DNA of 64,000 bases, taken from the NCBI RefSeq assembly GCF_000455205.1, contig NZ_AUWQ01000013.1, positions 1 to 64,000 on the forward strand, given 5' to 3'. The position numbers and the translations under genes are program-made. A model generated the notes under the pieces. That model worked only from the letters and a program-made list of their open reading frames with translations, was not told the origin of the DNA and did not search any database. Below, in pieces: positions 11,852-63,327 of this stretch. The DNA is from Mycobacterium sp. UM_CSW. GTDB taxonomy: Bacteria; Actinomycetota; Actinomycetes; Mycobacteriales; Mycobacteriaceae. Position 1 is the first letter of the stretch. Each line of letters begins with the position of its first letter.

Positions 11852-11879
11852 CTTCGGTTATCCGTTAGCCTGGCCAGCC

Positions 11880-39209: not shown

Positions 39210-39230
39210 ACGCCGCGTGCTCGGCGATGG

Positions 39231-39261: not shown

Positions 39262-39283
39262 AAATCAGGAGGCTGCTGCGGCG

Positions 39284-40039
39284 ATGGACAAGGTGGTCAC
39301 CTCACCTACGGCGGCTGCCGACGCCGTGGCCGACATAACCGACGGGTCGTCCTTGGCGGTCGGCGGATTCGGGTTCTGCGGCATCCCGGAGGCGCTGATC
39401 TCGGCGCTGGTCGACTCCGGCGTGCGCGACCTGGAGACGGTGTCCAACAATTGCGGCGGTTACGGTGTCGGCCTGGAAGCGCTGTTGCACCACAAGCGAA
39501 TTCGCCGGGCCGTCGCCTCCTACGTCGGCGACAACAGGGAATTCGCCCGCCAGTTCCTCGCCGGCGAGCTCGAGGTCGAGCTCACCCCGCAGGGCACTCT
39601 GGCGGAGCGGCTGCGCGCCGGCGGGATGGGAATCCCGGCCTTCTACACGCCCGCAGGGGTCGGCACCCCGGTCGCCGACGGCGGCTTGCCGTGGCGCTAC
39701 GACGCTTCGGGTGGGGTGGCCGTGATGTCGCCGCCCAAGGAGACTCGCGAGTTCGACGGCGTCACCTACGTTCTCGAGCGGGCGATCCGCACCGACTTCG
39801 CCTTGGTGCACGCGTGGCAGGGCGACCGGCACGGCAACCTCGTCTACCGGGCGGCCGCCGCCAACTTCAATCCCGATTGCGCGACGGCCGGCAGGATCAC
39901 CATCGCCGAGGTCGAACACCTCGTCGAGCCCGGGGAGATCGACCCGGCCGCGGTGCACACCCCGGGCGTCTTCGTGCACCGGGTCGTCCACGTGCCCAAT
40001 CCCGCCAAGCCGATCGAGAAGGTCACGGTGCGCCCGTGA
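39284..40039 (+). CDS. scoA: 3-oxoacid/acyl CoA-transferase, alpha subunit
   Basis: 251 residues, AGGAGG ten bases upstream. Class I CoA-transferase alpha chain with the [13 protein letters not shown] glycine-rich loop. With ScoB it moves CoA between succinyl-CoA and an acid such as acetoacetate, the end product of leucine breakdown; in M. tuberculosis this locus has also been linked to itaconate activation. Stop overlaps the scoB start (GTGA). Confidence 0.93.
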
Positions 40040-40686
40040 GCTGGACGAGGGAGGGCCTGGCCGCGCGGGTGGCCGCCGAATTCGAGGACGGCCAGTACGT
40101 CAACCTCGGCATCGGCCTGCCCACTCTGATCCCGAACCACATCCCCGACGGGGTCACGGTCGTCATCCACTCGGAGAACGGGATACTCGGGGTCGGGCCG
40201 TATCCCAGGCCCGACGACGTCGACGCGGATCTGATCAACGCGGGCAAGGAAACGGTCACCACGATGCCGGGTGCGGCGTTCTTCGGCTCCTCGACCTCGT
40301 TCGGGATCATCCGCGGCGGGCACCTCGACGTCGCGGTGCTCGGCGCCATGCAGGTCTCGGCGACCGGCGACCTGGCCAACTGGATGATTCCGGGAAAGCT
40401 GGTCAAGGGCATGGGCGGCGCGATGGACCTGGTGCACGGCGCCCGCAAGGTGATCGTGATGATGGAGCACACCGCCAAGGACGGCAGCCCGAAAGTCGTT
40501 GAGCGGTGCACCCTTCCGCTGACCGGCGTCGGCTGCGTCGACCGCATCATCACCGACCTCGCCGTCATCGACGTGCACGACGACGGCCTGCACCTCGTCG
40601 AGACCGCCCCCGAGGTCTCGGTCGACGAGGTGATCGCCAAAACCGAACCGCCCCTGACACCGGCGACCACCGGGAGGCCCACATGA
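40036..40686 (+). CDS. scoB: 3-oxoacid/acyl CoA-transferase, beta subunit
   Basis: 216 residues from GTG 40036 overlapping the scoA stop. Carries the catalytic glutamate in the motif SENGILGVG, which forms the covalent CoA intermediate. The longer open frame from 39451 lies across scoA. Works as a heterodimer or heterotetramer with ScoA. Ends in ATGA overlap with accD1. Confidence 0.93.
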
Positions 40687-42269
40687 GCACCGCCGTCACC
40701 ACCGCGCCGTCGTTCGCCGACGAGCACCGGCGGCTGGTCGCCGAATTGAACGCCAAGCTGGCCGCCGCCGCGCTGGGCGGCAACGAACGCGCGCGGGAAC
40801 GCCACGTCAGCCGCGGCAAGCTGCTGCCCCGCGAGCGGGTGGACCGCCTGCTCGACCCCGGCAGCCCGTTTTTGGAGCTGGCCCCGCTGGCGGCCGGCGG
40901 CATGTACGACGACGAGTCCCCTGGAGCCGGGATCATCACCGGGATCGGCCGGGTATCCGAGCGCGAGTGCGTGATCGTCGCCAACGACGCGACCGTCAAG
41001 GGCGGCACCTACTACCCGATGACGGTCAAAAAGCACCTGCGCGCGCAGGAAGTCGCGTTGCAGAATCGGCTGCCGTGCATCTACCTGGTCGACTCCGGCG
41101 GCGCGTTTCTGCCGCGCCAGGACGAGGTCTTTCCCGACCGCGAGCATTTCGGCCGGATCTTCTACAACCAGGCAACCATGAGCGCCAAGGGGATTCCGCA
41201 AGTGGCCGCGGTGTTGGGGTCGTGCACGGCGGGCGGCGCCTATGTGCCGGCGATGAGCGACGAGGCCGTCATCGTGCGTGAGCAGGGCACCATCTTTCTC
41301 GGCGGTCCGCCGTTGGTCAAAGCCGCCACCGGTGAGATCGTCTCGGCCGAGGAACTCGGCGGCGGCGACCTGCACTCGCGCGTCTCCGGCGTCACCGACC
41401 ACCTTGCCGACGACGACGAGGACGCGCTGCGGATCATCCGGTCCATCGCGGCCACCTTCGGGCCGCGCGAGCCCGCCCAGTGGGAGGTGCAACCGTCGGT
41501 CGAGCCCAGGCACCCGCAGACGGAGCTCTACGACGTGGTGCCACCGGATCCCCGCGTGCCCTACGACGTGCACGAGGTCATCGTGCGCCTGGTCGACGGC
41601 AGCGAATTCAGCGAATTCAAGGCGAATTACGGCAAGACGCTGGTGACGGCCTTCGCGCGCATCCAGGGCCATCCCGTGGGCATCGTCGCCAACAACGGCG
41701 TGCTGTTCAGCGAATCGGCTTTGAAGGGCGCGCATTTCATCGAGCTGTGCGACAAGCGCAGGATTCCGCTGCTGTTTCTGCAGAACATCGCCGGGTTCAT
41801 GGTCGGCCGCGACTACGAGGCCGGCGGCATCGCCAAGCACGGCGCCAAGATGGTCACAGCCGTGGCCTGCGCCCGGGTGCCCAAGCTGACCGTCGTCATC
41901 GGCGGCTCCTACGGAGCAGGCAACTACTCGATGTGTGGACGCGCGTATTCACCACGCTTCCTGTGGATGTGGCCCAACGCCCGCATCTCGGTGATGGGCG
42001 GCGAGCAGGCCGCGTCGGTGCTGGCGACCGTACGCGGCGAGCAGCTCAGCGCGGCGGGCAAACCGTGGTCGGCCGACGACGAGGAGGCGTTCAAGGCGCC
42101 CATCCGGGCGCAGTACGAGGACCAGGGCAACCCCTACTACTCGACGGCGCGATTGTGGGACGACGGCATCATCGACCCGGCCGACACCAGAACGGTTCTC
42201 GGGCTTGCCCTTTCGGCGTGCGCCCATGCGCCGCTGGAACCGGTCTCCTACGGCGTATTCCGGATGTGA
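40683..42269 (+). CDS. accD1: Acyl-CoA carboxylase carboxyltransferase (methylcrotonyl-CoA type)
   Basis: 528 residues. Two crotonase-like halves: an N-terminal one with [18 protein letters not shown] and [15 protein letters not shown], and a C-terminal one with [37 protein letters not shown] and [20 protein letters not shown]. These are typical of the beta subunit of methylcrotonyl-CoA carboxylase, and the M. tuberculosis AccA1/AccD1 pair has that activity in leucine breakdown. Overlaps scoB by 4 bp; accA1 follows 4 bp on. Confidence 0.93.
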
Positions 42270-42273
42270 GGCG

Positions 42274-44244
42274 ATGTTCGACACCGTATTAGTGGCCAAC
42301 CGCGGCGAGATCGCGGTGCGGGTGATCCGCACGCTGCGCCGGCTCGGCATCCGATCGGTCGCCGTCTACAGCGACCCCGACGCCGCCGCGCGGCACGTGC
42401 TCGAGGCCGACACCGCCGTGCGCCTCGGGCCCGCCGCGGCGCGGGAAAGCTACCTGGACATCGACAAGGTCGTCGACGCCGCGGTGCGCACCGGGTCCCA
42501 GGCGATCCACCCGGGCTACGGGTTCCTCTCGGAGAACGCGCATTTCGCCGCGGCGTGCGAGCGCGCCGGCGTGGTGTTCCTGGGCCCGCCGCCTCGGGCG
42601 ATCGAGGTGATGGGCGACAAGATCACCGCGAAGAACGCCGTGGCCGCCTTCGACGTCCCGGTGGTGCCCGGGGTGGCCAAGCCGGGCCTGACCGATGACG
42701 ATCTCGTCGCCGCCGCCGACGAGATCGGCTATCCGGTGTTGATCAAGCCGTCGGCCGGCGGCGGTGGCAAGGGCATGCGGCTGGTCGAGGGCCCCGCGCG
42801 GCTGCGTGAGGCGCTGGTGGGTGCGCGACGGGAGGCCGCCTCCTCGTTCGGCGACGACACGCTGTTCCTGGAGCGGTTTGTGTTGCGGCCCAGGCATATC
42901 GAGGTGCAGGTGCTCGCTGACACGCACGGCAACGTGGTTCATCTGGGCGAGCGCGAGTGCAGCCTGCAACGGCGCCACCAGAAGGTCATCGAGGAGGCGC
43001 CCTCGCCGCTGCTCGATCCCGCGACACGCGCGCGCATCGGCGCCGCGGCCTGCAACACCGCCCGCAGCGTGGATTACGTCGGCGCCGGGACGGTGGAGTT
43101 CATCGTCTCCGCGGAGCGTCCCGACGAGTTCTTCTTCATGGAGATGAACACCCGCCTGCAGGTGGAGCATCCGGTCACCGAGGCGGTCACGGGCCTGGAC
43201 CTGGTGGAGTGGCAGCTGCGGGTGGCCGCCGGCGAGAAGCTGGGGTTCGCCCAGGACGACATCGAACTGCGCGGGCACGCGATCGAGGCCCGCGTGTACG
43301 CCGAGGATCCCGCGCGCGGGTTCCTGCCCACCGGCGGCGAGGTGCTCGCGGTGTCCGAACCGTCGGGTGCCGGCGTGCGGGTGGACTCGTCGCTGCTGGC
43401 CGGCACGCGGGTCGGCAGCGACTACGACCCGATGCTGAGCAAGGTCATCGCGCACGGCGACGATCGCGAGGAGGCGCTCGCGAAACTCGATCGGGCACTG
43501 GGGCAAACCGTGATCCTCGGCGTGCAGACGAACGTCGAATTCCTCCGCTTCCTGCTGGCCGACGACCGGGTGCGCGCCGGTGATCTGGACACCGCGCTGC
43601 TCGACGAGCGGCTGACGGACTTCGCGCCGGCGCCGGCGCCCGACGACGTGCTCGCCGCAGGCGGGCTGTACCGCCAGTGGGTTCTGGCGCGCCGCGGCCG
43701 GGGCAACCCGTGGGCGGTGCCGACGGGATGGCGGGTCGGTGGTGGCGCCGCGCCGGTGCGCACCGCGATGCGCACCCCGCTGCGCAGCGAGACGGTGTCG
43801 GTGTGGGGAACGCCCGAGGCCGCCCGGGTTCAGGTCGGCGAGGGCGAGATCGTCTCCGCCAGCGCGGAACTCGACGGCGCACGGATGAGCGCGACGCTGG
43901 GCGGCCGGCGCCGCGACTACTGGTGGGCCGAGGCCGACCGGCACCTGTGGATCGCCGACGAGCGGGGAACCTGGCACCTGCGCGAGGCCGAGGAGCACAA
44001 GATTCACCGCGCGGCGGGCGAGCGGCCGGCCGAGGTCGTCAGCCCCATGCCCGGCAACGTGATCGCCGTGCAGGTCAGCTCCGGCGACGAGGTCTCCGAG
44101 GGCGACGTGATCGTCGTCGTCGAGGCGATGAAGATGGAACATTCTCTGCCCGCACCGGTTTCGGGTCGAGCGGAGCTGCTGGTGTCGGTCGGCGATCAGG
44201 TGAAAGTCGACCAGGTGCTGGCTCGAATTAAGGACGGATCATGA
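42274..44244 (+). CDS. accA1: Biotin carboxylase / biotin carrier subunit (methylcrotonyl-CoA carboxylase alpha)
   Basis: 656 residues from ATG 42274 with TGAGG upstream; the open frame from 42205 is inside accD1. Biotin carboxylase domain ([19 protein letters not shown] grasp [31 protein letters not shown]) spans about 1-450. A middle domain and a C-terminal biotinyl domain follow, with Lys620 in EAMKMEH. It carboxylates biotin for AccD1. Overlaps fadE19 by 4 bp. Confidence 0.95.
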
Positions 44245-45416
44245 CGACAACAATTACTACGATTTCCGGGGGAACGTTACCCAAGGAATACGAGGACCTT
44301 CGCGACACCGTCGCCGACTTCGCGCGGACCGTGGTCGCGCCGGTGTCGGCCAAACACGATGAGGAACACAGCTTCCCGTACGAGGTCGTCGCCAAAATGG
44401 CCGAGATGGGCCTGTTCGGGCTGCCCTTCCCGGAGGAGTACGGCGGCATGGGCGGCGACTACTTCGCGCTGGCGCTCGCGCTAGAAGAACTCGGCAAGGT
44501 CGACCAGTCGGTGGCCATCACGCTGGAGGCCGGCGTCGGGCTCGGCGCGATGCCGATCTACCGGTTCGGCACCGAGGAGCAGAAGCAGAAATGGCTGCCG
44601 GACCTGACCGCCGGCCGGGCGCTGGCGGGTTTCGGGCTGACCGAGCCGGGTGCCGGCTCCGACGCGGGGGCCACCCGCACCACCGCCCGGCTCGACGACG
44701 GTGAGTGGGTGATCAACGGCAGCAAGCAATTCATCACCAACTCCGGCACCGACATCACGTCGCTGGTCACCGTCACCGCGGTCACCGGAACGCTCGCGGG
44801 TGACAAGAAGGAGATCTCGACGATCATCGTGCCCAGCGGCACACCGGGTTTCACCGTCGAACCGGTCTACAACAAGGTCGGCTGGAACGCGTCGGACACC
44901 CACCCGCTGAGCTTCGCCGACGCCCGCGTCCCGGAGGAGAACCTGTTGGGTGCCCGCGGGACCGGCTACGCGAACTTCCTGTCCATTCTGGACGAGGGCC
45001 GCATCGCGATCGCCGCGCTGGCGACCGGGGTCGCGCAGGGCTGCGTCGATGAAAGCGTCAAGTACGCCAAGGAACGCCAGTCGTTCGGCCAACCGATCGG
45101 CTCGTACCAGGCGATCAGCTTCAAGATCGCCCGGATGGAAGCCCGCGCGCATGTGGCCCGCACGGCGTATTACGAGGCCGCCGCGAAGATGTTGGCGGGC
45201 AAGCCCTTCAAGAAGGAGGCGGCGATCGCGAAAATGGTCTCCTCCGAGGCCGCGATGGACAACGCCCGCGACGCCACCCAGATCCACGGCGGCTACGGCT
45301 TCATGAACGAATATCCGGTGGCGCGCCACTACCGCGACAGCAAGATCCTCGAGATCGGTGAAGGCACTACGGAAGTGCAGCTGATGCTGATCGCGCGATC
45401 GTTGGGGCTGTCGTGA
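44241..45416 (+). CDS. fadE19: Acyl-CoA dehydrogenase (isovaleryl-CoA dehydrogenase candidate)
   Basis: 391 residues. FAD-dependent acyl-CoA dehydrogenase: [76 protein letters not shown] and GEGTTEVQ. Its place in the operon between methylcrotonyl-CoA carboxylase and downstream hydratase/lyase genes implies it oxidises isovaleryl-CoA (or 2-methylbutyryl-/isobutyryl-CoA). Translationally coupled to accA1 (ATGA). A MIRU-like repeat separates it from the next gene. Confidence 0.93.
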
Positions 45417-45501
45417 CGCGCGCCGGCGACGATGCAGTGGGGGTGCCCCCAGCCGCGCAGCAGCGAGGGGGACGGAGCGACGAGCAGGAGAGGCGCTCAT
45501 G
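45414..45501. repeat. MIRU-like intercistronic repeat
   Basis: The 82-bp spacer and its flanking stop and start resemble mycobacterial MIRU units: it opens TGACGCGCGCCGGCGACGAT after the fadE19 codons and ends CAGGAGAGGCGCTCATGA at the next start. The centre carries a TGGGGG-TG-CCCCCA hairpin. MIRUs are inserted in operons with their ends forming the stop and start codons, as here. The assignment rests on memory of the consensus. Confidence 0.6.
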
Positions 45502-45993
45502 ACGGAACCCCGGTCGATCATCCAGCGGGGCTTGTGGTTTGAGGAGTTCGAGGTCGGCACGACCTACCTGCACCGGCCCGGCCGCACCGTCACCGAGGCC
45601 GACAACGTGTTGTTCACCACGCTGACGATGAACACCCAGTCGCTGCACCTGGACGCGGCGTGGGCCGCCGAGCAGCCGGGCTTCCGCGGCGAGCGGCTGG
45701 TGAACTCGATGTTCACCCTCTCCACGCTGGTGGGGCTGTCGGTGGCGCAGTTGACGCTCGGCACGATCGTCGCCAACCTCGGCTTCTCCGAGGTGTCGTT
45801 CCCCAAGCCCGTCTTCCACGGCGACACCCTGTACGCCGAGACCGTGTGCACCGACAAGCGCGAGTCGAAGAGCCGGCCCGGCGAGGGCATCGTCACCCTC
45901 GAGCACACGGGCCGCAACCAGCACGGCGACGTCGTGGCGCGGGCGGTGCGGACCACTCTGGTACAAAAGCGGCCAGACACAGAGGAGTCGTGA
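45499..45993 (+). CDS. MaoC-family enoyl-CoA hydratase (Rv2499c-like)
   Basis: 164 residues with AGGAGAGG before the ATG. Single hot-dog fold of the MaoC type: [40 protein letters not shown] (catalytic Asp/His region) and [16 protein letters not shown]. Between fadE19 and citE it probably hydrates 3-methylglutaconyl-CoA or an analogous enoyl-CoA to the substrate of CitE. The M. tuberculosis counterpart has been placed in leucine and itaconate breakdown. Its TGA overlaps the citE ATG by one base. Confidence 0.87.
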
Positions 45994-46814
45994 TGGACCT
46001 GCGCGCCGCCGGGCCGGCCTGGTTGTTCTGCCCGGCCGACCGTCCCGAGCGTTTCGCCAAGGCCGCCGCCGCGGCCGACGTCGTGATCCTCGACCTCGAG
46101 GACGGCGTGGCCGAAGCCGACAAGCCCGCCGCCCGCAAGGCGCTACGGGAAACCCCGCTGAACCCCGAGCGCACCGTGGTGCGGATCAACGCCGCCGGCA
46201 CCGACGAGTACGCCCGCGACCTGGAGGCCCTGGCCGAGACCGCCTACACCACGGTCATGCTCTCCAAGACCGAGTCGGCCGCGCAGGTGACCGCGCTGGC
46301 GCCGCGTCAGGTGGTCGCGCTGATCGAGACGCCGCGCGGCGCGGTGTTCGTCGCCGAGATCGCCGCGGCCGAGGGCACCACCGCCGTGATGTGGGGTGCC
46401 GAGGACCTGGTCGCCACCCCCGGCGGCAACTCCAGCCGGCTGGCCGACGGCACCTATCGCGACGTCGCCCGGCACGTGCGGTCGGCCGCCCTGCTCGCGG
46501 CGTCCGCTTTCGGCCGGATCGCGCTCGACGCCGTCCATTTGGACATCCGCGACATCGACGGCCTGCGGGCCGAGGCCGACGACGCCGTCGCCGTCGGTTT
46601 CGACGCGACCGTCTGCATCCACCCCAGCCAGGTCGCCGTCGTGCGGGAGGCCTACCGCCCCAGCGAGGAGAAGCTGGACTGGGCGCGACGGGTGCTGGCG
46701 GCAGCGCGCTCGGAGCGCGGCGTGTTCGCGTTCGAGGGACAGATGGTCGACTCGCCGGTGCTCAAGCACGCGGAGACGTTGCTGCGGCGGGCGGGCGAGT
46801 CCGCATCGGAGTAA
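45993..46814 (+). CDS. citE: CitE-like beta-hydroxyacyl-CoA lyase (Rv2498c-like)
   Basis: 273 residues, the same length as Rv2498c. HpcH/HpaI/CitE fold: WLFCPADRPERFAKA, DVVILDLEDGV (Asp/Glu metal region), TVVRINAAGTDE, ALIETPRGAV and MWGAEDLVATPGGN. Rv2498c cleaves (R)-3-hydroxy-3-methylglutaryl-CoA and citramalyl-CoA, so this enzyme probably ends leucine breakdown with acetyl-CoA plus acetoacetate and may serve itaconate breakdown. No citrate-lyase partners are present, so the traditional name is misleading. Confidence 0.9.
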   Translation: MDLRAAGPAWLFCPADRPERFAKAAAAADVVILDLEDGVAEADKPAARKALRETPLNPERTVVRINAAGTDEYARDLEALAETAYTTVMLSKTESAAQVTALAPRQVVALIETPRGAVFVAEIAAAEGTTAVMWGAEDLVATPGGNSSRLADGTYRDVARHVRSAALLAASAFGRIALDAVHLDIRDIDGLRAEADDAVAVGFDATVCIHPSQVAVVREAYRPSEEKLDWARRVLAAARSERGVFAFEGQMVDSPVLKHAETLLRRAGESASE

Positions 46815-46870
46815 AGCGCGACACGTTTTCCCCTCAGCCGTGATCAACGAGGTGTCTTCGTATTTGGGCG

Positions 46871-46876
46871 CATAAT
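46871..46876 (+). promoter_or_regulatory. Possible internal promoter (-10) before bkdA
   Basis: CATAAT in the 128-bp gap between citE and bkdA is a plausible -10 box; no good -35 is seen. The gap is the only sizeable break in the operon apart from the MIRU-like spacer, so bkdABC may be partly independent. AAGGAGG precedes the bkdA start. Confidence 0.4.
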
Positions 46877-46942
46877 GGGGGATAAGCCAGTCTCGCGGCG
46901 AGCGCAGGCTCTCGCGTAGCTGGCGATCGCCAAGGAGGCGGT

Positions 46943-48034
46943 ATGACGGAATTCGCGCAGAAGCCGATGACCGTCGACCTCGAGCCGGTCCAACTCATCG
47001 CCGCCGACGGCACGCAGACCGCCGAGCGCCGCTACGGCCGCGACCTTCCGCCGGAGACGCTGTGCTGGCTCTACGAGATGATGATCGTCACCCGCGAGCT
47101 CGACACCGAGTTCGTCAACCTGAAGCGCCAAGGGCAACTGGCGCTGTTCGCGTCGTGCCGCGGCCAGGAAGCCGCCCAGGTCGGCGCCGCGGCGTGTCTG
47201 CGCAAGACCGACTGGCTGTTTCCGCAATACCGTGAGCTCGGCGCGTATCTGGTGCGCGGCATCCCGCCCGGGCACGTGGGGGCGGCGTGGCGGGGAACGT
47301 GGCATGGCGGCCTCGATTTCACCAAGAAATGCTGCGCCCCAATGTCCATCGCGATCGGCACGCAGACGCTGCACGCCGTCGGCGCGGCGATGGCCGCGCA
47401 ACGCCTGGGGGAGGATTCGGTCACGGTGGCCTTCCTCGGCGACGGCGCCACCAGCGAGGGCGACGTGCACGAGGCGTTGAACTTCGCTGCCGTCTTCGCG
47501 ACGCCGTGCGTGTTCTACGTGCAGAACAACCAGTGGGCGATCTCGGTTCCGGTGTCCAAGCAGACGGCCGCACCTTCCATCGCGCACAAGGCAATTGGCT
47601 ACGGAATGCCCGGGATCCGGGTGGACGGCAACGACGTCCTGGCGTGCTACGCGGTGACGGCCGAGGCGGCCGCCCGGGCGCGAGCCGGTAGCGGCCCGAC
47701 GTTGATCGAGGCGGTCACCTACCGGCTCGGCCCGCACACCACCGCCGACGATCCGAGCCGGTACCGGACCCAGGACGAAGTGGACCGGTGGGAGGCTCTG
47801 GACCCGATCCCGCGCTACCGCACGTACTTACAGGGCCAGGGCGTGTGGTCGCAACGCCTGGAGGATCGGGTCGTCGCGCGTGGCAAGCGGATGCGGGCCG
47901 AACTGCGCCAGGCGGTGTTCGACGCACCCGACTTCGACGTCGACGAGGTGTTCACCACGGTGTACGCCGAGATCACGCCCGGGCTGGAGACGCAGCGCCA
48001 ACAGCTGCTGGCCGAACTGGGGAGGCTCGAATGA
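46943..48034 (+). CDS. bkdA: Branched-chain 2-oxoacid dehydrogenase E1 alpha
   Basis: 363 residues. Thiamine-diphosphate site from GDGATSEGDVHEALNFAAVF to QNNQWAISVP (GDG...NN motif) and the phosphorylation-loop-like YRLGPHTTADDPSRYR. With BkdB it decarboxylates the keto acids of Leu, Ile and Val and passes the acyl group to BkdC lipoate. The homologue Rv2497c was once called pdhA, but the surrounding genes fit branched-chain substrates. Overlaps bkdB by 4 bp. Confidence 0.94.
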   Translation: MTEFAQKPMTVDLEPVQLIAADGTQTAERRYGRDLPPETLCWLYEMMIVTRELDTEFVNLKRQGQLALFASCRGQEAAQVGAAACLRKTDWLFPQYRELGAYLVRGIPPGHVGAAWRGTWHGGLDFTKKCCAPMSIAIGTQTLHAVGAAMAAQRLGEDSVTVAFLGDGATSEGDVHEALNFAAVFATPCVFYVQNNQWAISVPVSKQTAAPSIAHKAIGYGMPGIRVDGNDVLACYAVTAEAAARARAGSGPTLIEAVTYRLGPHTTADDPSRYRTQDEVDRWEALDPIPRYRTYLQGQGVWSQRLEDRVVARGKRMRAELRQAVFDAPDFDVDEVFTTVYAEITPGLETQRQQLLAELGRLE

Positions 48035-49065
48035 CCCAGCTCGCCGAGCCTCCGCGCCTGCCTGCCCTTGATGCGGCAACCGGAGCGCAACAGCTGACCA
48101 TGGTGCAGGCGCTGAACCGCGCGCTGCACGACGCGATGGTCGCCGACGATCGCGTCCTGGTGTTCGGCGAGGACGTCTCCGTCGAAGGCGGGGTCTTCCG
48201 GGTGACCGAAGGGCTCGCCGAAACCTTCGGCGAGGAGCGGTGTTTCGACACGCCCCTGGCGGAGTCGGCCATCATCGGCATCGCGGTCGGACTGGCGCTG
48301 CGCGGATTTGTCCCGGTGCCGGAGATCCAGTTCGACGGATTCTCCTACCCAGCCTTCGATCAGGTGGTCAGCCACCTGGCCAAGTACCGCACCCGCACCC
48401 GTGGCGAGATCAACATGCCCGTCACCGTCCGGATCCCGTCATTCGGCGGAATCGGTGCGGCCGAACATCATTCGGACTCCACCGAGTCCTACTGGGCGCA
48501 CACCGCCGGCTTGAAGGTGGTGGTGCCGTCCAGCCCGGCCGACGCCTATTGGCTGCTCCGCCACGCGATCGCCTGCCCCGACCCGGTGATGTACCTGGAG
48601 CCGAAGCGGCGCTACCAGGGCCGGGACTTGGTCGACGTGAGGCGGCCGGAACCGCCGGTCGGGCAGGCGATGGTGCGGCGCCCGGGCCGGGACGTAACCG
48701 TCATAACGTACGGCAGCCTGGTGAGCACCGCCGTGGCCACCGCGGAAGACGCCCAGCGCCAACGTGATTGGAGCCTGGAGGTCATCGATCTGCGGTCACT
48801 GGTCCCGCTGGACTTCGACACGATCGCTGCGTCGATCCATCGGACCGGGCGCTGCGTGGTGTTGCACGAAGGACCGCGCAGCCTGGGCTACGGGGCCGGC
48901 CTGGCCGCCCGCATCCAGGAGGAGATGTTCTACGAGCTGGAGGCACCGGTGCTGCGCGCCTGTGGTTTTGACACGCCCTATCCGCCGGCCCGGTTGGAAA
49001 GGCTGTGGTTACCCGGCCCCGACCGGCTGCTGGACTGCGTCGAGCGCGTGCTGAGCCTGCCGTGA
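48031..49065 (+). CDS. bkdB: Branched-chain 2-oxoacid dehydrogenase E1 beta
   Basis: 344 residues from ATG 48031 within the bkdA stop (ATGA). Transketolase-like pyrimidine-binding domain ([60 protein letters not shown]) and C-terminal domain ([35 protein letters not shown]). Forms the alpha2beta2 E1 with BkdA. Ends in a GTGA overlap with bkdC. Confidence 0.95.
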
Positions 49066-50219
49066 GCACCGACGAGCGCGTCAAGCCGTTCCGGGTTCCC
49101 GACCTCGGCGAGGGGCTGGAAGAGGTGACGGTGTCGTGCTGGTACGTCGCTGCCGGCGACGAGGTCGAGCTGAACCAGGTCTTGTGTTCGGTGGAGACCG
49201 CCAAGGCCGAGGTGGAAATCCCGAGCCCGTACGCCGGGCGAATCGTCGAGACCAATGGGGCCGAGGGCGATGTGCTCAAGGTCGGCGCGGTGCTGGTCCG
49301 CATCGACACCGCGCCCGCCGCCAGCAACGGACAGGCCGCGGCGCCCACGCTGGTCGGCTACGGCGCCGACGCGGCCGTCGACGCGAGCCGACGGGCCGCC
49401 CGGCCGCTCGTCGCCCCACCCGCGCGCAAGCTGGCCAAGGAACTCGCGGTCGACCTCGCGTCGATCCGGCGCGATCCGGGTGAGGTCATCACCCGCGCTG
49501 ATGTGCTGGCGGCCGCCCGCGGGACGGGGCGAGACATTCGGCCGGTCCGCGGCGTGCAGGCCCGGATGGCCGAGAAGATGGCGTTGTCCCACAAGGAAAT
49601 CCCGGCCGCCACGGTCAGCGTCGACGTTGACTGCAGCGCGCTGTTGCGGCTGCGCGACCGTTGTCGCCCCGCTCACCCGGAGATCACGCCGTTCGTGCTG
49701 ACGCTGCGGCTTCTCGTTATCGCCCTGGGCCGCAACCTGATTCTCAACTCGACCTGGGTCGACTCGCCCGAAGGCCCGCAGGTGCAGGTCCATCGAGCCG
49801 TGCATCTGGGGTTCGGCGTGGCCACCGAGCGGGGGCTGCTGGTCCCGGTGATCACCGACGCGCAGAACAAGACGACCCGCGAACTGGCCAGCAGGACAGC
49901 CGAATTGATCGCCGGCGCGCGGGAGGGCAGCCTGACACCCGCGGAGTTGCTCGGCTCGACGTTCACCGTGTCGAACTTCGGAGCGCTGGGCGTGGACGAC
50001 GGCGTGCCGGTGATCAACCATCCGGAGGCGGCGATCCTGGGCATGGGAGCAATCAGGCCACGACCGGTGGTGGTGGGGGATGAGGTTGTTGTCCGGTCGA
50101 CGATGAGCTTGACATGCGTGTTCGATCACCGCATCGCGGACGGGGCCCAGGTGGCGCAATTTATCTGCGCACTCAGGGATCTGATCGAGTCGCCCGAGAC
50201 CGCCCTGCTGGACCTGTAG
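49062..50219 (+). CDS. bkdC: Branched-chain 2-oxoacid dehydrogenase E2 (lipoamide acyltransferase)
   Basis: 385 residues from GTG 49062. One lipoyl domain with Lys48 in ETAKAEVE, a peripheral subunit-binding domain ([20 protein letters not shown]), and a catalytic core ending in [12 protein letters not shown], with the HxxxDG active site. It transfers the acyl group to CoA; the E3 (lipoamide dehydrogenase) is encoded elsewhere. Last gene of the operon; 3 bp from a convergent gene. Confidence 0.95.
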
Positions 50220-52981: not shown

Positions 52982-53545
52982 ATGTCGGCGCGGGAGGCTC
53001 TCATCGCCAGCGTCACGGGATTGGTGCGACGGCGGGGAGTCGCCGGAACGGGCCTCAACGCGCTGCTGGAGGACAGCGGAGTCGCCCGCAGGACCGTCTA
53101 CCTGAACTTTCCCGGCGGCAAGGCCGAGCTCGTCGCCGAAGCCACCCGCCTGGCGGGGGACGAGTTGACGGCGGTGATCCGGTCGGGAGACGACGGCGGC
53201 GATCCCGCCGAGGCGGTCCAGACCTTCATCGACGCGTGGAAGGCGCAGCTGACGGCGACGCAGCTCCAAGCGGGCTGCCCGATTGTGGCAGCCGTCCTCG
53301 GTCGCTCCGAAGCGCCGGCGGCCGCGGAGGCGGCCCGCGAGGCCTTTGGTGACTGGCAGACGATCCTCGCCGACCGGCTGGTGAGCTCCGGCGCCGATCG
53401 TGACAACGCACGCTCACTGGCGACCCTCACGGTCGCCGCCATCGAAGGCGCCGTCATCCTCGCGATCGCGACGCAGTCGACCGATGCGCTCGACGACGTC
53501 GGACGTCACCTGATCGAGGTCATGAGGCTGCACCTGCCCGCGTAG
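52982..53545 (+). CDS. TetR family regulator (LmrA/YxaF-like)
   Basis: 187 residues. N-terminal helix-turn-helix: [40 protein letters not shown] (the Y-FPGGK variant of this subgroup). The C-terminal ligand domain has [16 protein letters not shown], typical of the YxaF/LmrA branch. It lies between a nitroreductase-like gene and the megasynthase gene, which follows 107 bp downstream on the same strand, so it may control either or both. Confidence 0.88.
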
Positions 53546-53652: not shown

Positions 53653-56600
53653 GTGCTTGAGCATTCCATTCCCGAGGTCCTGCGGGAGCGTGCCAGCTCG
53701 CGGCCCAACGACCTGGCGTTCACCTATGTCGATTACGAGAACGACTGGGAGGGCGTTGCGGAAAGCCTGACGTGGTCACAGCTGTATCGCCGCACGCTGA
53801 ACCTCGCACGTGAGCTCAAAACCTGCGGGTCTACCGGCGACCGCGCCGTCATCCTGGCGCCGCAGGGGCTCGAGTACGTCGTCGGCTTTCTCGGCGCGCT
53901 GCAGGCCGGTCAGATCGCGGTTCCGCTGTCGATGCCGGTGGGTGGCGCCAGCGACGAGCGGGTCAGCGCCGTCCTGCATGACGCGTCGCCTTCGACGATT
54001 CTGACCACATCCGCTGCCGTGGACATCATCGCCGAGTACGCGAAGTCGGAGCCCGGTGCGCCATCGGTCGTCGAGGTCGATCGGCTGGATCTTGACTCTC
54101 GGCAAACGGTCGCCGCGGGCACCGACGGCGCGACGAGCATCGCGCACCTGCAATACACCTCCGGGTCGACCCGCACTCCCGCGGGAGTTGTCGTCTCGCA
54201 CAAGAACATTCAGGTCAACTGCGAGCAGATCATGGCCATGTACTACGAGGCCGAGGGTGGGATGGCCCCGCCAGACACCACCGTGGTGTCGTGGCTGCCG
54301 CTCTTCCATGACATGGGTTTGATCCTGGGTATCGCCTTCCCGGTCCTGTGGGGATTCCCCACCGTGCTCACGAGCCCGCCGTCCTTCCTGCAGCGCCCGG
54401 CGCGGTGGATGCAAATGCTGGCCAGCAATCCGCACGCGTTCTCGGCGGCGCCCAACATCGCGTTCGAATTGGCGACGCGAAAGACGTCGGACGACGACCT
54501 GGCGGGGCTGGACCTCGGGGGCGTGCACACCATCCTCAACGGCGCCGAGCGTGTGAACCCCCCGACGCTGTGGCGCTTTGCGGACCGCTTCGCCCGCTTC
54601 AACTTCCGCCCCGAGGCGTTGCGTCCCTCCTACGGACTCGCGGAGGCCACGCTCGTGGTGGCGACCCGCCAGGCGGGTCACCCCCCGGTGACAGTGTCTT
54701 TCGATTCGGAGCAGATGACCGCCGGCCGTGGCGAGCGGTGCGCGGACGGTGCCGGTATCCCGCTGGTCAGTTATGGCATGCCGAAGTGGCCGATCGTGCG
54801 AATCGTCGACCCCGAGACGAGCATGGAGTGCCCGGAGGGAACGGTCGGCGAGATCTGGACGATCGGCGAGAACGTCTGCTCTGGCTATTGGCAGAAACCC
54901 GAAGAGACAGAACGTGTCTTCGGCAGAGCTATCGTCGGCGCGTCGGACGGCACACCGGAAGGGCCGTGGCTGCGGACGGGGGATCTGGGCTTCTACTCCG
55001 AAGGCGAGATGTTCATCGTCGGCCGGATCAAGGATCTCTTGATCGTCTACGGGCGCAACCATTCTCCCGACGACATCGAGGCGACGATCCAGGAGATCAC
55101 CCGCGGCCGCTGCGTGGCGATCGCGGTTTCGGATGATGACGGTCCCGAGAAACTCGTCACAATCGTCGAACTCAAGCCCGGCGGCGATTCCGAAGAGGAC
55201 GCGCTACGGTTGATCGCCACCCGGCGTGAAATCATCGCAGCGATATCGAGGACGCACGAACTGAGCGTCGCGGATCTCGTTCTGGTGCCCCCACATTCGA
55301 TTCCCCTCACCACAAGCGGCAAGGTGAGGCGACGGGATTGCTCAAAGCTTTATCAGCAGGGCGCATTCACCCGTTTGGACGCGCACATCGGCCCGTCAAA
55401 GCCGCCCGCGGTCGAGGACACCGCCGCGGACGCAGGGGCCGACTCGGGATTGGCCCAACGTGTTCGCACGCTAAGCCAGCAGCAACACGACCTGCTGGTG
55501 GGGATGGTCTGCGCGCAGGCGGCGGCGGTGTTGGGGCGTCCGAGCCCGGACGACATCGACCGCGGGTCGGCGTTTCGCGACCTGGGTCTTGATTCGGTGA
55601 AAGCCACGGAATTGCTCGACCGGCTCAGGACCGAAACCGAGCTGCCGTTGCCGCCGACGCTGGCGTTCGACTATCCCACCCCCGACGAATTGGCCGCCCA
55701 TTTAGCCCAGCTGCTGATCGGGCCGGTCGCGGCGGCCTCGCCGGTGGAGTCGCAGGTTGCGGTGGACGAGCCGATTGCGGTGGTGGGCATGGCGTGTCGG
55801 TTCCCGGGTGGGGTGGATTCGCCGGCGGCGTTGTGGGATTTGGTGGCCAGCGGTACGGATGCCGTCGGGGCGTTTCCGGCCGACCGGGGTTGGAATTTGG
55901 GGGAGTTGTTCGACCCCGACCCGGATGCGGTGGGCAAGACGTATACCCGCGCGGGTGGGTTCTTGGCGGACGCGGCCGGGTTCGACGCGGAGTTCTTCGG
56001 GATCTCGGGGCGTGAGGCCCAAACCATGGATCCCCAGCAGCGGCAGCTGCTGGAGGTGTGCTGGGAAGCGTTGGAAACGGCTCGAATTGATCCGGCCGGG
56101 TTGGTGCGGACCGAGACCGGCGTGTTCGTCGGCGCGTGGTCACAGTCTTACGGCGGGGGCGGCTCGGAGGGCGTGGAGGGCTACGCGCTGACCGGCCTGT
56201 CCCCAAGCGTGGCGTCCGGGCGAATCGCTTATGCGCTGGGCTTGCAGGGCCCCGCGATCACCGTCGACACCGCCTGTTCGTCGTCGTTGGTGGCCACGCA
56301 TTTGGCGTGTCAGTCGCTGCGCAATGGGGAGTCTTCTTTGGCGTTGGCCGGTGGGGTGACGGTGATGACGACGCCGTCGGTGTTCACCGAGTTCGCGCGC
56401 CAGCGTGGGCTGGCCGCCGACGGGCGCTGTAAAGCGTTCTCCGCCAACGCCGATGGCACCGGCTGGGGTGAGGGTGCCGCGGTGCTGGTGTTGGAGCGCT
56501 TGAGTGATGCGCGGCGCAATAACCACCCGGTGCTGGCGGTGATCGCGGGCTCGGCGATCAACCAGGACGGCGCCTCCAACGGATTGACCGCCCCGAACGG

Positions 56601-59600
56601 GCCCTCCCAACAACGCGTCATCACCCAGGCCGCGGCCAACGCGGGCATCGGGCTCGATCAGGTCGATGTGGTCGAGGCGCACGGCACCGGCACCACGTTG
56701 GGCGATCCGATCGAGGCCGGTGCGCTGATCGCCACCTATGGGGCGGCCCGCTCGGCGGATCACCCGTTGTGGGTGGGCTCGATCAAGTCGAATATCGGAC
56801 ACACCCAGGCCGCCGCCGGGGCGGCGGGGTTGATCAAGATGATCGAGGCGCTGCGCCACGACAGTCTGCCGCCGACGCTGAACGTGGATCGGCCCAGCCC
56901 GCATGTGGATTGGTCGGCCGGCACGGTGCGGCTGCTGACCGAGGCGGTGCCCTGGCCGCGGGAAGATCATCCGCGCACCGCGGCGGTGTCCTCGTTCGGG
57001 ATCAGCGGCACCAACGCCCACGTCATCGTGCGGCAAGCCCCCGACGCGCCGGTCGAGCCGGCCGAAGAACCCGAGGGTGTCGACTTCGGGCTGCGGGTGT
57101 GGCCGGTGTCGGCGCGCACGCCCGCGGCGTTGCGCGCGCAGGCCGACCGGCTGCACGACTCCCTGCTCGCTCATCCGGAGCTGGATCTGACCGACGTGGC
57201 CTACAGCCTGGCCACCACCCGCACCCACCACCCATATCGGGCGGTGATCACCGGAGCGGTCGACCGCGCCGATCCCCGCGAAGACTTGCTGGGCGCGCTG
57301 CTAGCCCTGCGCGACGGCCACGCCCACCCGCAGCTCACCCAACACCACTACCTGGCCCAGGTCCGCGGCAAGACCGTGTTCGTGCTGCCCGGCCAGGGCG
57401 GCCAATACCCGGGCATGGGGCGCGAGCTTTACGAGCGCCACCGCGTCTTTGCGGCGATGGTCGATGACTGCGACGAGGCGTTGCGCCCGTTCACCGGCTG
57501 GTCGGTGCGCGAGGTCCTGTTGCAGGAGTCGGGGGCGCCGGCGCTGGATCGTGTCGATGTGGTTCAGCCGGTGCTGTTTACGATGATGGTCTCGTTGGCC
57601 GAGGTGCTCAGCTCTTACGGCATCGTGCCCGACGCGGTGATCGGACACTCGCAGGGCGAGATCGCCGCGGCTTACATCGCCGGGGTGTTTTCCCTGCCCG
57701 AGGCGGCCCAGATTGTGGCGCGGCGCAGCCAGGCGCTGGGCGAACTGTGTGGGGCCGGTGCGATGGCCTCGGTGCTGCTGGGCGCCGAGCAACTCGAGCC
57801 CCTGCTGCGGCCGTGGGGCGCGGCGTTGAGCATTTCGGCGATCAACGGCCCGTCACACACCATCATCAGCGGCGAGCCTTCCGCGATGGAGCAGTTCAGC
57901 GCGGCCTGTGAGCGCGATGGCATCCAGTTCCGGGCGATTGCGGTGGATTACGCCTCGCACTGCGCGCAGGTTGAGGCGGTGCGCGAGCGGCTGCTGGCCG
58001 AGCTGGGCGAAGTCAGCCCGGCCTTGTCCCGCATTCCGTTGTATTCGACGGTGGGACAGGCGGTTTCGGGTGATCCGTTGGACACCACCACGATGGACGC
58101 CGGCTACTGGTATCGCAACCTGCGTGAGCCGGTGCGCTTTTATGACCGGGTGGCCGAGCGGCTGGCCGTGGGGGAGTGCACGTTTGTCGAGCTGTCTCCG
58201 CATCCGGTGTTGGCGCCCGCGCTGGCCGATACGCTGGCGCAGACCCCGGGGCGTGCCCAGTCGACGGTCGTCATCACGCTGCACCGGGAACGTCCGGACC
58301 ACGACAGCCTGGCTATGGCGTTGGCGCAGTTGCACACTCACGGCCACAGCCCCTCATGGCAAGCGCTCTACCCGCACGCCCACAGCGTCGCGCTGCCCAC
58401 CTACCCGTTCGACCACCGCCGCTACTGGCTCGCCCCCACGCCGGTCGATGACGCCGCCGCCCTCGGGCTGGACCGCGCCGAGCACCCCTTACTGGGTGCG
58501 GTCGCCGAATTGGCCGACGAAGACCAGATCATGGTCAGCGGGCGGCTGTCGCCGGCCACCCTGGAGTGGCTGGGCGGACACCGGGTCAACGACACCATCT
58601 TGTTCCCGGCGACGGGATTCATCGAAGTGATCCTGCGGGCCGGGGAGCTGGCCGGTGCCCCGATGATCGACGAGCTGATCCTGCACACCGCCCTGGTGTT
58701 GTCGGAGCAGGCGCCGACCGATCTGCAGGTCCTCGTGCACCCACTCGATGAGCTGGGCCGCCGCCCGTTCAGCGTGCACTCGCGCGCCGGCGGCCAGCTT
58801 CGTGCCGCGTGGACGCTGCACGCCAGCGGCGCGCTCACCGTCCGCCAGCCGGCCGTCGGCTCCCCGCCGCCTGCATTGGGTGCGGAGGCGCTCAACCAGG
58901 ACGACTTCTACGACCGGCTGGCTCAGCAGGGCTACAACTACGGCGGTTCGTTCCGATCGGTCCGGAGCATCGGCACCGATGCGGCCCGACCCGACGTCGT
59001 CTACGCCGAGGTGGCGCTGCCCGCCGGCACGGAGGTCGCCGGTTACGGCATTCACCCGGCCCTGCTTGACGCGGCCCTGCAGCCGTTGGCTTCCGTGCTG
59101 GACGGGAATGACTCGGGATCGCCGCGACTTCCGTACGCGTTCAACGGAATTGCCCTACATGCCACCGCGGCCACCGAGCTGCACGTGCACCTCACCCGGA
59201 CTGGCGAGGACACGTTCACGCTGCACGCCGCCGACCCCACCGGCGCTGCGGTGATCACCATCGGCGCGGTGACGTTGCGCGCGATGTCCGACCAGCTCGG
59301 CCGGCCCGCTTCGACGGCCGGGCTCTCCGAGAGCATGTTCGAGCTGACCTGGCCGTCGCTGCCCGACCTGCCCGGTGTGTCCGCGGACCAACCACCGGCA
59401 TGGGCGGTGTGCACCGATTCACCCGAGCAGTTGCCGAATGGCCTGTCCCGCGCCACAATTCACGACGACCTCGCCACCTTGACCCCATGCCCGGAGCTGG
59501 TCATCTGGGCCCTACCGCAACCCGCCGAAACCGATCCACTTCGCCGGGTGCACGCCCTGACCCGACATGCCTTGGCCCAGCTCCAGGGCTGGCTGACCCG

Positions 59601-62600
59601 TCCCGACAATGCCAACGCCCATTTGGTGATCGTCACCCGCCATGCGGTCAGCATCGGCGCCTATGACGCCGTCCCGGATCTGGCGCACGCCGCGGTCTGG
59701 GCGCTGATACACACCGCTGCAAACGAGCACCCCGGCCGCATCACCCTGATCGACACCGACGACACCCCAGCCACCGCCACTGCCCTGCTGGCCATCGTCT
59801 CGGCGCGACCGGCGGGCGAGCCGGAGTTGGCCCTGCGCAACGGTGTTGCCCACATTCCGAGGGTGGCCCGCATCCCAACCCTGACCCCGCCCGATGCTCC
59901 CGACTGGCAGTTGGGCACCACCGGCAAAGGTGACCTGACCAACCTGACCCTGCTCCCCACCGATGCGCCAAATACCCTGGCGCCGGGGCAGATTCGCGTT
60001 CAGATCCGGGCCGCTGGGCTGAACTTCCGGGACGTGGTCGTCGCCTTGGGCGCGATCGCCGATGACGGAATGGGCAGCGAAGCATCGGGGGTCGTCCTCG
60101 ACGCGGCCCCGGGCGCATCGCTGCGCCCCGGTGATGCGGTGATGGGGCTTTTCCCGCATAACGCGTTCGCGCCCACCGCGATCGCCGACGAGCGCATGGT
60201 GGTGCACGTCCCGGACGGATGGTCGTTCACCCAGGCCGCATCCGCGCCCATCGTATTTCTCACCGCCTATGCCGCGTTGGTCGACATCGCCGGGCTATCG
60301 GCCGGCCAACGCGTGCTCATCCACGCCGGCGCCGGAGGCGTCGGTCAGGCCGCCATCCAGATCGCCCGCCACCTCGGTGCCGAGGTGTTCGCCACCGCCC
60401 ACCCGAACAAACACCACGTGCTGGGCCAGCTGGGGCTCGACCCCGCCCATATCGCGTCGTCGCGCACGCTGGACTTCGTCGACACCTTCAAAGCCGCCAC
60501 CGATGGGCAAGGCATGGACGTCGTGCTCAACAGCCTGGCCGGCGAGTTCATCGACGCGTCGCTGCAATTGCTGCCCCGCGGAGGCAGTTTCGTCGAAATC
60601 GGCAAGACCGACATCCGCCGGGCCGACGACATCGCCGCGTCCCATTCCGGAGTCGACTATCAGGTCTACGACCTGTCCAGCGCACCGGCGCAAGCCCTGC
60701 AGCCCGCATGGGCGGCCCTGACCGAAATGTTCGCCGCCGGCGTGCTCAAGCCGCTGCCCACCACGAGCTACGGCCTGCTGAACGCGCCGCAAGCCTTCCG
60801 CGACATGAGCCAAGCCCGGCACACCGGAAAGATCGTGCTGATCCCGCCCGCGGTATTGGATCCCCAAGGCACCGTGCTGATCACGGGCGGCACCGGGATG
60901 CTGGGCGCGCTGTTCGCCGAACACCTGATCACCCGCTACGGCGTCGAGCATCTATTGCTGTTGTCCCGCAGTGGAATCGACGCGCCCGGGGCCGGCGAAC
61001 TGCAAGAGCGGCTGACCGGGCTCGGCGCCCGAGTCGCGATCGCCGCGTGTGACACCAGCGACCCCGCCGAGGTGGCCGCTGCACTCGACACGATCCCCGC
61101 CGACCACCCGTTGACCGCGGTGATCCACGCCGCGGGCGTCCTCGACGACGCGCTGGTGACCGATTTGAGCGCCGAACAGCTCGATGCGGTCTTGGCCGCT
61201 AAGGCGGACGCGGCCTGGCACCTGCATCACCTCACCGCCGACCGCGACCTGGCCGCGTTCGTCCTGTTCTCCTCCGCCGCGGGCATCCTGGGCAGCGCCG
61301 GGCAGGCCAACTACGCGGCCGCCAACGCGTTCCTGGACGCGCTGGCCCGCCACCGGCATCACACCCAACGCCAGGCCACCAGCCTGGCCTGGGGCTATTG
61401 GCAAACCCCGTCCGGGATGACCGCCCACCTCAGCACCGGCGACCTGACCCGCCTGAGCAGCACCGGGCTCACCCCCATCACCAACGAGCACGGCCTGGCG
61501 CTCTTCGACGCGGCGCTCACCAGTCAGCCGACCAACCTGCTGGCCAGCCCGTTCAACACCGCCGCGCTGGCCCGGCAGGCCCGCAACGGCACGCTGGACC
61601 CGATCCTGTCCGCCCTGACCACCAGCCGCCGCCAGGCCGCCACGGCCAGCCCGCGCACGCTGGCCGCCACGCTCGCCACCCAAACGCCGCGACAACGGCT
61701 GGACACCCTCACCGCGATGGTCACCGCCACCACCGCCGCGGTGCTGGCCCACCCCGACCCGGCCGCCCTCGACCCCGAGATTCCCTTCAAGGAACTCGGC
61801 ATTGACTCCCTGACGGCTCTGGAACTGCGCAACACGGTGAACCAACGCACCGGCCTCGCCCTGCCCGCAACGCTGGCCTTCGACCACCCCACCCCGGCGA
61901 AGCTCGCCGGACACCTCGCGGAGCTGCTGACCGACACCGCCGCGCCCGCCGCGCCGGCGGCTCAGGTCAGCACGCGTGGCGACGAGCCCGTCGACAATCG
62001 ACTCGCATACCTGGATCAGGCGGCGTTCCTGGCGCTGCGAGCGGTGCACGGCGCGCTGATTCAGGTCACCTGGATTTACGACCGCGCCATCGACGTCGAG
62101 GGGCTAAAGCGTTTTCACCGCAACCTTGGCCGCGGGTTGTTGGGACGCCGGATCGAACGGTCCACGTTGCCATTCGCGCGCGATCGCTGGGTGCAGGCAC
62201 CGCCGCCGGAGGAGATCGACTTTGCCGCGACGCCACGTCCGCGTGCCCAGGTGAACGCGTGGGCCGACGAGCGGGCCCGCCTGCCCATCGACCCGGAGTG
62301 GGGCCCGGCCTGGCACCTCGGCGTGCTTCCGCTCGAGGACGGCGGCACCGCGGTAAGCCTGGTGGCCTCGCACACGATCGTCGACGCCATCGCGTTCGGC
62401 CAGGCGATAGAAGACGCCGCCGAGGGCAGGACGCGTGACCTGGGCTATCCCGCCGCGGGATCGCGCACCCTCGGGCGGGCCGTGCGTGAGGATCTCCGGC
62501 AAACCGTCAAAGACCTGCCCGACATAGGGCACGCGTTGGCCGCGGTGGCCCGCCGGGCCCGGCGCGACCGCAAGGAACTCAACTCATCGTTCAAGGCGGC

Positions 62601-63327
62601 ACCGCCGTCGCCGAGGAGGTCCGCCGACGACCAGCCGGTAGAGGTGCCCGCCCTCACGGCATACATCGACCTTGCCGAATGGGATGCCCGCGCGAAAAGC
62701 CTTGGCGCAAGCAGCAACTCACTGGTGGCTGGAATCGCGTGCCGGCTCGCGGTGCGGATGGGTCGGGTTCAGGACGACGGGACCGTCACCCTCCGATTCA
62801 TGGTGACGCTGCGGACCGAAGGCGATACCCGAGGCAACGCGCTCACCAGCGTCGACGTCCCGGTCGACCCGACGCACGCGGCGACGGACCTGGCCGATAT
62901 GCAGGCCAAGATCACGCAAACGATCCTCGAGGCGATGGAGGACCCCGACAACGAGTGGCTGGCGCCGCTGCCGCTCGCCGCGTTGACGCCGGTATGGGCG
63001 GCCAGGAAGGTCGCGGGGATGGCGACCGGTGGCTCCACCCTGCCGGTCACGTGCTCCAACGTCGGTGACCTGTCCCCGTCGGCGAATCGCCCCGACGGCA
63101 CCGACGCCGATTACGCGTACATGAGAAACCTCGAGCCCGATATGAAGCAAAGCACGCTCGAGGCCATGGGCGGACAATTGTTCCTGGGTTCGGGGCGGGG
63201 CCGCGGCAAGATGTTTATCCGAATCTCGGCGTATCTTCTCGGGCGGTCGAACACCAAAGAGGAGCTACGGGAAAGCGTGTCGCGCACGTTCGCCGAATTC
63301 GACCTGAATGCGGAGATCGACTGCTAA
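53653..63327 (+). CDS. FAAL-ACP-KS-AT-DH-ER-KR-ACP-condensation megasynthase
   Basis: 3224 residues from GTG; TATCGT seven bases before it suggests a leaderless message. Order: fatty acyl-AMP ligase 1-590 ([20 protein letters not shown] type); ACP1 Ser648 (DLGLDSVKA); KS Cys875 (DTACSSSLV); AT Ser1333 (GHSQGE) with YASH 1433-1436, the methylmalonyl signature; DH His1643 ([10 protein letters not shown]) and Asp1806; ER with HAGAGGVGQ near 2224; [10 protein letters not shown] near 2411, LDD 2497-2499, Tyr2554; ACP2 Ser2719 (LGIDSLTAL); and a C-terminal domain (about 2780-3224) with HTIVD 2907-2911, the HxxxD of condensation/PapA acyltransferases. It should load a free fatty acid, add reduced methyl-branched unit(s), and esterify or amidate an acceptor. 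Product unknown. Confidence 0.93.

Follow-up and report, generated by a model that had tools for sequence, protein, structure and literature searches.

Mycobacterial lipid assembly relies on parts and chemistry that are individually well known, namely FadD23/28-type ligases, modular polyketide synthases (PKSs) and PapA5-like acyl transfer. In the phthiocerol dimycocerosate (PDIM) system of M. tuberculosis, these jobs are divided among FadD28, MAS and PapA5. Ligation and extension are joined in the cyanobacterial olefin synthase (OLS), which the section on this enzyme in a 2025 review of fatty acyl-AMP ligases (FAALs) presents as a FAAL–acyl carrier protein (ACP)–PKS system (PMC11837247). Here, we analysed the first 64,000 nucleotides (the 64-kb window) of contig NZ_AUWQ01000013.1 of Mycobacterium sp. 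UM_CSW, in which one gene encodes an FAAL, a fully reducing PKS module, two carrier domains and a C-terminal domain (Ct) with a predicted condensation/acyltransferase fold. We consider it fairly likely that this protein is a single-chain acyl-lipid synthase. In this reading, a fatty acid loaded by the FAAL would be extended by a single methylmalonyl unit, which would undergo full reduction, and Ct would pass the 2-methyl-branched product to the hydroxyl group of an acceptor, probably a glycolipid.

Domain organisation of the synthase

The gene is a single unbroken frame from a GTG codon to the stop at 63327 (Table 1). The original prediction, made from the sequence letters of the window, had proposed the order FAAL–ACP–PKS–ACP–Ct with a full reducing module and two carrier domains. 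Pfam, NCBIfam and motif comparisons bore out this order, including the dehydratase (DH), enoylreductase (ER) and ketoreductase (KR) and two separate PF00550 stretches. In the Pfam scan, the ketosynthase (KS), extender acyltransferase (AT), KR and AMP-binding models matched far beyond chance (E 1.6e-91 to 7.8e-55), and PP-binding, two DH models and ADH_zinc_N_2 matched at E 1.6e-28 to 2.4e-20; the ADH_N match of the ER (23.0 bits) fell slightly short of its cut-off of 23.5. The AMP-binding match covered residues 11–413, the better of the two PP-binding stretches residues 620–684 and the KS matches residues 706–953 and 961–1078. The motifs expected for KS, AT, DH, ER and KR were all found in the sequence, as were both LGxDS carrier motifs. 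In domain content, the protein thus corresponds to a modular cis-AT type I PKS. GHSQGE and YASH in the AT are taken, by a motif rule, to mark the methylmalonyl-CoA type, in line with the methyl branch anticipated earlier. Among 35 distinct proteins containing both KS and Ct, YASH was present in 31 and HAFH in four. The ratio of nonsynonymous to synonymous divergence (dN/dS), calculated with a home-made Nei–Gojobori count, was well below 1 in all nine domains tested (ca. 0.04–0.38 in five comparisons), and all nine look as if they have been kept by purifying selection.

Table 1. Position of the synthase gene, its domains and the upstream regulator gene in the 64-kb window
Feature	Position	Strand	Basis
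Whole single-chain synthase gene, 3224 aa, GTG start	53653..63327	+	Open reading frame
FAAL, residues 1–577	53653..55383	+	PRK05850 (fatty-acid--AMP ligase, NCBIfam) 932.3 bits vs cut-off 775; closest solved chains FadD23 8hd4 (E 8.6e-228), FadD28 3e53
First carrier domain (ACP1), residues 620–684, LGLDSV	55510..55704	+	PF00550; motif
KS, residues 706–1078, DTACSS / EAHGTG / SNIGHT	55768..56886	+	PF00109 E 1.6e-91, PF02801; motifs
AT, residues 1242–1565, GHSQGE, YASH	57376..58347	+	PF00698 E 4.9e-84; motifs
DH, residues 1611–1881, HPALLDA	58483..59295	+	PF21089, PF14765; motifs
SpnB-type structural Rossmann domain (SR), residues 1969–2071	59557..59865	+	PF22953
ER, residues 2111–2396, NFRD, HAGAGGVG	59983..60840	+	PF00107, PF13602 above cut-off, PF08240 just below; motifs
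KR, residues 2406–2584, GGTGMLG, LDDA, YAAAN	60868..61404	+	PF08659 E 1.2e-56; motifs
Second carrier domain (ACP2), ca. residues 2675–2760, LGIDSL (motif at 2715)	61675..61932	+	Second PF00550 stretch; borders set here, placed from motif
Condensation/acyltransferase-fold domain (Ct), residues 2780–3224, SHTIVDA, CSNVG	61990..63324	+	Predicted fold
TetR-type regulator, possible regulator of the synthase	52982..53545	+	PF21993, PF00440; ends 107 bases before the synthase

The C-terminal domain

The original prediction hinged on the C-terminal 445 residues belonging to the condensation/acyltransferase superfamily. Pfam did not place them (best match PF02458, E 0.095, 11.8 bits vs 22.7), and a PDB sequence search with Ct returned one chance match only (E 0.078). 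The predicted structure, by contrast, has the two-lobe fold of the condensation/BAHD type, by which Ct is assigned to this superfamily; PapA5 and plant O-acyltransferases scored about equally against the model. The HxxxD motif typical of PapA proteins was also present, with its H and D retained in 96 of 96 alignment rows (the histidine is residue 2907 in the window copy). The closer description of Ct as PapA/condensation-like therefore stands for the fold and fails for the sequence: the Pfam scan gave no match to PF00668 (Condensation), whose cut-off was exceeded by three neighbouring PapA-type proteins at relatives' loci, and a profile comparison with six local PapA-type proteins indicated no sequence-level kinship (Prob 0.4). 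The wax ester synthase models TIGR02946 and PF03007 (WS/DGAT) likewise gave no match to the window Ct, and TIGR02946 was weakly matched by two of the four Ct-family proteins scanned (23.8 and 18.0 bits, E 1.8e-5 and 0.0011, vs a cut-off of 309.95). The family of Ct is acyltransferase-like and widespread in mycobacteria, and it has no Pfam or NCBIfam name.

Distribution and architectural variants

Relatives of Ct were found in 150 of 297 relatives' genomes, representing two of 50 genera and nearly all in the window's own genus. At least 21 of the 297 genomes (own included) contained a listed match of ≥ 59% identity inside an open frame of > 1000 aa. Across the order, 65 of 397 genomes had a match, and outside the genus the frames did not exceed 839 aa among the matches listed. 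We retained 80 of the 160 relatives found in a capped scan of named genomes with two short peptide patterns. Within these 80, the full order FAAL-ACP-KS-AT-DH-SR-ER-KR-ACP-Ct was encoded by one called gene at 14 further named mycobacterial loci (L068, L069, L072, L073, L077, L078, L080–L083, L090, L092, L096 and L102), or 15 with the window, as expected from the predicted conservation in several species. The species include M. paraense, M. palustre, M. terramassiliense, M. alsense, M. persicum, M. interjectum (second copy) and M. bohemicum. Many other kept loci were variants or were cut at contig ends. No title among the 80 kept records named M. tuberculosis, M. leprae, M. marinum, M. avium, M. 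abscessus or M. kansasii, although absence from these species is not proven because the scan depends on the two patterns and on its cap. Genes were called with a home-made program, and the borders of neighbouring genes are approximate.

The relatives retain both ends of the protein and differ in the middle or in the loader. Reductive domains are lacking in a paralogue of the same genome (L040) by Pfam and in L094 and L106 by BLAST. KR is the only reductive domain in two types, one represented by M. asiaticum (L057 by Pfam; L097 and L099–L101 by BLAST) and the other by M. sphagni (L104 and L105 by BLAST), and DH is the only one in L055, which is the same as L095 (Pfam). At the M. innocens, M. 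ostraviense and M. gastri loci (L050, L051 and L085–L087), two modules are spread over two proteins. Three further relatives (L060 at 2969–12727, L061 and L119) combine a similar module and Ct with an HAFH-type AT and a FadD22-like loader that scored 1032.5, 1014.9 and 880.6 bits, respectively, none of which reaches the FadD22 cut-off of 1228 (the loader stretch of L119 was shortened by the gene caller); their product is perhaps aromatic-capped. The AT of L103 also has the HAFH motif and matches the window AT at only 46%. The copies L046/L075, L053 and L058 look broken. Rather than standing alone, the window architecture belongs to a set whose parts are exchangeable.

The paralogue L040 (G000 contig 112, 5583–12287) is a second fused synthase of the genome, without DH, ER and KR by Pfam. 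By clustering, nearby genes include ones for ABC-type transporters, a GT1-type protein and an AT3-type acyltransferase. L040 is predicted to perform beta-keto acyl transfer.

Proposed reaction and alternatives

In the reaction that we favour, the FAAL would adenylate a free fatty acid and load it onto ACP1, after which KS and AT would add a single methylmalonyl unit on ACP2. KR, DH and ER would then reduce the product fully to a 2-methyl-branched acyl-ACP, and Ct, with HxxxD providing the general base, would shift the chain from ACP2 to a hydroxyl on a second molecule; the likeliest acceptor is the sugar or polyol part of a glycolipid in the cell envelope. The overall working would equal that of FadD23/28, a modular PKS and PapA5 joined in one chain. 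We infer one extension, full reduction and transfer to a glycolipid hydroxyl from the glycolipid-type surroundings of other family members and from KS-AT-DH, which is closer to the modules of DEBS (best 1182 bits) than to the iterative MAS (928 bits). Among the fused-family relatives, L096 lies near GT1-type, AT3-SGNH, epimerase and TylF-type methyltransferase genes (L090 by clustering), L094 lies beside an ABC-2 transporter, and L099 and L101 lie beside a PapA-type gene and a Pks2/MAS-type PKS. The lipooligosaccharide (LOS) island of M. smegmatis might also contain Ct relatives; it is given as MSMEG_4727–4737 in PMC11139207, in passages that do not state to which families its genes belong.

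Several points weigh against this proposal. The methylmalonyl specificity of the AT rests on a motif rule, Ct has no sequence match to the PapA, Condensation or WS/DGAT families, and a likeness in fold alone does not establish its reaction, such that amide formation or hydrolysis would also be possible. No glycosyltransferase, exporter or PapA gene was seen beside the window copy among the called genes, most of which were not family-searched, and the kansasii-complex copies (L083 and L085–L087) were not seen adjoining glycosyltransferase or exporter genes. A run of WS/DGAT, HAD-PlsC-like and GPAT genes starts ca. 5.5 kb downstream of the synthase (L039, 5825–11432), and its WS/DGAT gene matches PF03007 at 253.9 bits; because of this run, a glycerolipid could also be the acceptor. 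The earlier description of a self-contained pathway, starting with a free fatty acid and ending with a complete ester or amide, is an inference, because an acceptor from another source is required.

Iterative use is common among the reducing PKSs of mycobacteria, and the module might work repeatedly, like MAS and Pks2, to produce a multi-methyl-branched acid that is then released by Ct. The MAS match and a score of 1074.5 bits on the NCBIfam Pks2 model are compatible with this. However, that score is below the model cut-off of 2400, whereas two Pks2/MAS-type PKSs near relatives scored 3998 and 3249 bits on the same model, so the window protein is not of the Pks2/MAS type. The DEBS modules also outscore MAS, and the existence of two-module relatives and of relatives without reductive domains argues for one use per module. 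Iteration is therefore unlikely. Transfer to an amine or amino acid, giving an N-acyl lipid, would be equally compatible with the superfamily fold, but we regard it as quite improbable: plant O-acyltransferases score about as well as PapA5 against the Ct fold, the weak profile likeness of two of the four Ct-family proteins (none for the window Ct) is to WS/DGAT O-acyltransferases, and genes of glycolipid type adjoin several relatives. Finally, Ct could be structural or cryptic, with release by a separate protein or water, for which the CON domain of LovB-type fungal PKSs offers a precedent. The invariant H and D, a Ct dN/dS of ca. 0.05–0.16 in five comparisons and the maintenance of standalone homologues as separate genes in many genomes make a non-catalytic Ct very improbable. 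Single extension followed by O-acyl transfer remains our preferred reading.

Fused and standalone forms and apparent exchange between paralogues

Standalone Ct genes are 53%–60% identical to the window Ct. In 22 of 27 loci (L107–L133), standalone FAAL and Ct genes adjoin each other in divergent orientation, and two of the remaining five are fused-type loci. Trees of Ct (44 fused and 50 standalone rows) and FAAL (27 fused and 26 standalone rows) each contained a single change between the fused and standalone states (support 100/100 and 98/95, respectively), with the fused rows on one side of a branch in both. The trees are unrooted with respect to fused versus standalone state, and their rows were sampled with a fused sequence as the query. 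Rows were labelled by the stop-to-stop frame, by which 13 rows were relabelled, and two contig-edge Ct rows were dropped; labels based on the late starts of the gene caller had given five (Ct) and six (FAAL) changes. Because there is a single state change in each tree, the sequences fit either a single fusion, in which a module came to lie between FAAL and Ct genes that were paired beforehand, or a single split. Standalone Ct genes of the FAAL-paired type occurred alongside a close synthase in 13 of 16 genomes as counted by record prefix, a count that is confounded by kinship and was not used as evidence.

In the window's own genome, a glycolipid-type cluster (L041, G000 contig 23, 732–19939) includes a divergent standalone FAAL/Ct pair together with a Pks2-type PKS (3998 bits vs the Pks2 cut-off of 2400), a PapA-type protein, two GT1-type genes, a methyltransferase and MmpL. 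The Ct family is seen in another setting in L042 (G000 contig 33, 5853–13377), L136, L139 and L140, where two standalone Ct genes come after a PapA-type gene and MmpL is present; L136 additionally has an FAAL and an SfLAP-family protein.

Identities to paralogues and orthologues differ from domain to domain in the synthase. The window KS is 95.5% identical to that of its own paralogue and 90.3%–91.5% identical to those of four orthologues, whereas the reverse holds for FAAL (68.5% vs 76.4%–86.8%) and Ct (73.0% vs 84.5%–87.6%). Synonymous divergence (dS) from the sister E796 was 0.40 in KS and 0.66 in AT, compared with 0.13–0.27 in the other seven domains. The contrast was weak against the other near sister, 1245805.9 (0.32 and 0.29 in KS and AT vs 0.16–0.30 elsewhere), and absent or slight against three more distant orthologues. 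The two M. interjectum paralogues (L075, which is split into two frames, and L090) have three exact DNA tracts in common (945, 690 and 690 bases), and a segment of the ER protein is identical in both, although an assembly artefact is possible. No such effect was found in M. paraense (KS 91.7% within the genome vs 91.3%–92.0% between orthologues) or in P9652, where KS identity was lower within the genome (85.4% vs 88.7%). Judging from these sequences, some paralogues appear to have swapped KS/AT and ER stretches, though this is not evident for all pairs.

We tentatively propose, as a broader idea that is somewhat less likely to be right than wrong, that these proteins are mycobacteria-restricted, single-origin, one-protein "tail makers". 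Natural recombination would have combined their fixed ends (loader–ACP and ACP–Ct) with varied loaders, reductive sets and types of AT. Each paralogue would make its own short acyl tail, be it branched, beta-keto, beta-hydroxy or aromatic-capped, and attach it to surface glycolipids of nontuberculous mycobacteria that still await description.

Gene neighbourhood

The synthase is preceded by the TetR gene and surrounded by a DUF732 gene and, ca. 1.2 kb downstream, a cutinase gene. A TetR relative was called upstream at several close loci and not at others. Of 13 close loci, 12 had a cutinase-like match no more than ca. 2.7 kb downstream, compared with none of eight loci from other subfamilies; the cutinase (L039, 1482–2126) is sometimes present in two copies at close loci. 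It may act on an ester product or reflect mere synteny. Elsewhere in the window, a 3075-aa frame (2624–11851) with a weak KS match toward its end is presumably fatty acid synthase I, and a same-strand gene run (37623–50219) has gene starts that we take to resemble parts of acyl-CoA synthetase, CoA-transferase, acyl-CoA carboxylase and branched-chain dehydrogenase.

Comparison with known systems

The synthase unites known parts, whose jobs related bacteria usually split among three proteins, in a single-chain combination for which we found no description. The original prediction had named no characterised example, and our literature search agreed, finding no account of FAAL-ACP-PKS-ACP-acyltransferase in one chain among the records listed; this is weak evidence, as subscription papers were mostly outside its coverage. 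The term PapA occurs nowhere in the text of the 2025 FAAL review (PMC11837247). If the proposal is correct, a mycobacterial lipid is activated, extended and passed to its acceptor by one chain, and a single purified protein could suffice to reconstitute a whole pathway of the FadD-Pks-PapA type. The relatives, in which loaders and reductive sets vary while the ends stay the same, form a natural series that bears on PKS module exchange in nature. They also point to acylated lipids in nontuberculous mycobacteria; no structures of such lipids were found assigned to these genes.

LovB/MokA-type reducing PKSs also carry a C-terminal CON domain, but they are fungal and iterative and lack an FAAL. 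WS/DGAT wax ester synthases share the superfamily and HxxxD with Ct; they differ in that two of the four Ct-family proteins scanned, neither of them the window Ct, reach only 18–24 bits of a cut-off of 310, with no PF03007 match for Ct, and in that their donor is acyl-CoA, whereas that of the synthase would be acyl-ACP. FadD22, the loading protein of the phenolic glycolipid pathway, is the best match to the loaders of L060, L061 and L119, which are not FAALs; these loaders score below its cut-off and are fused to a module and Ct, whereas the window copy has an FAAL. OLS shares the starting order FAAL-ACP-KS-AT-KR-ACP in the part of the review that describes it (PMC11837247). It makes a terminal alkene and ends in sulfotransferase and thioesterase domains, neither of which was found in the synthase by the Pfam scan at E 0.01; the synthase ends in a condensation-fold domain. 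Compared with the PDIM system, the KS-AT is closer to DEBS than to MAS and Ct is unlike the six local PapA-type proteins by sequence, and the tasks of three proteins there are assembled in one here.
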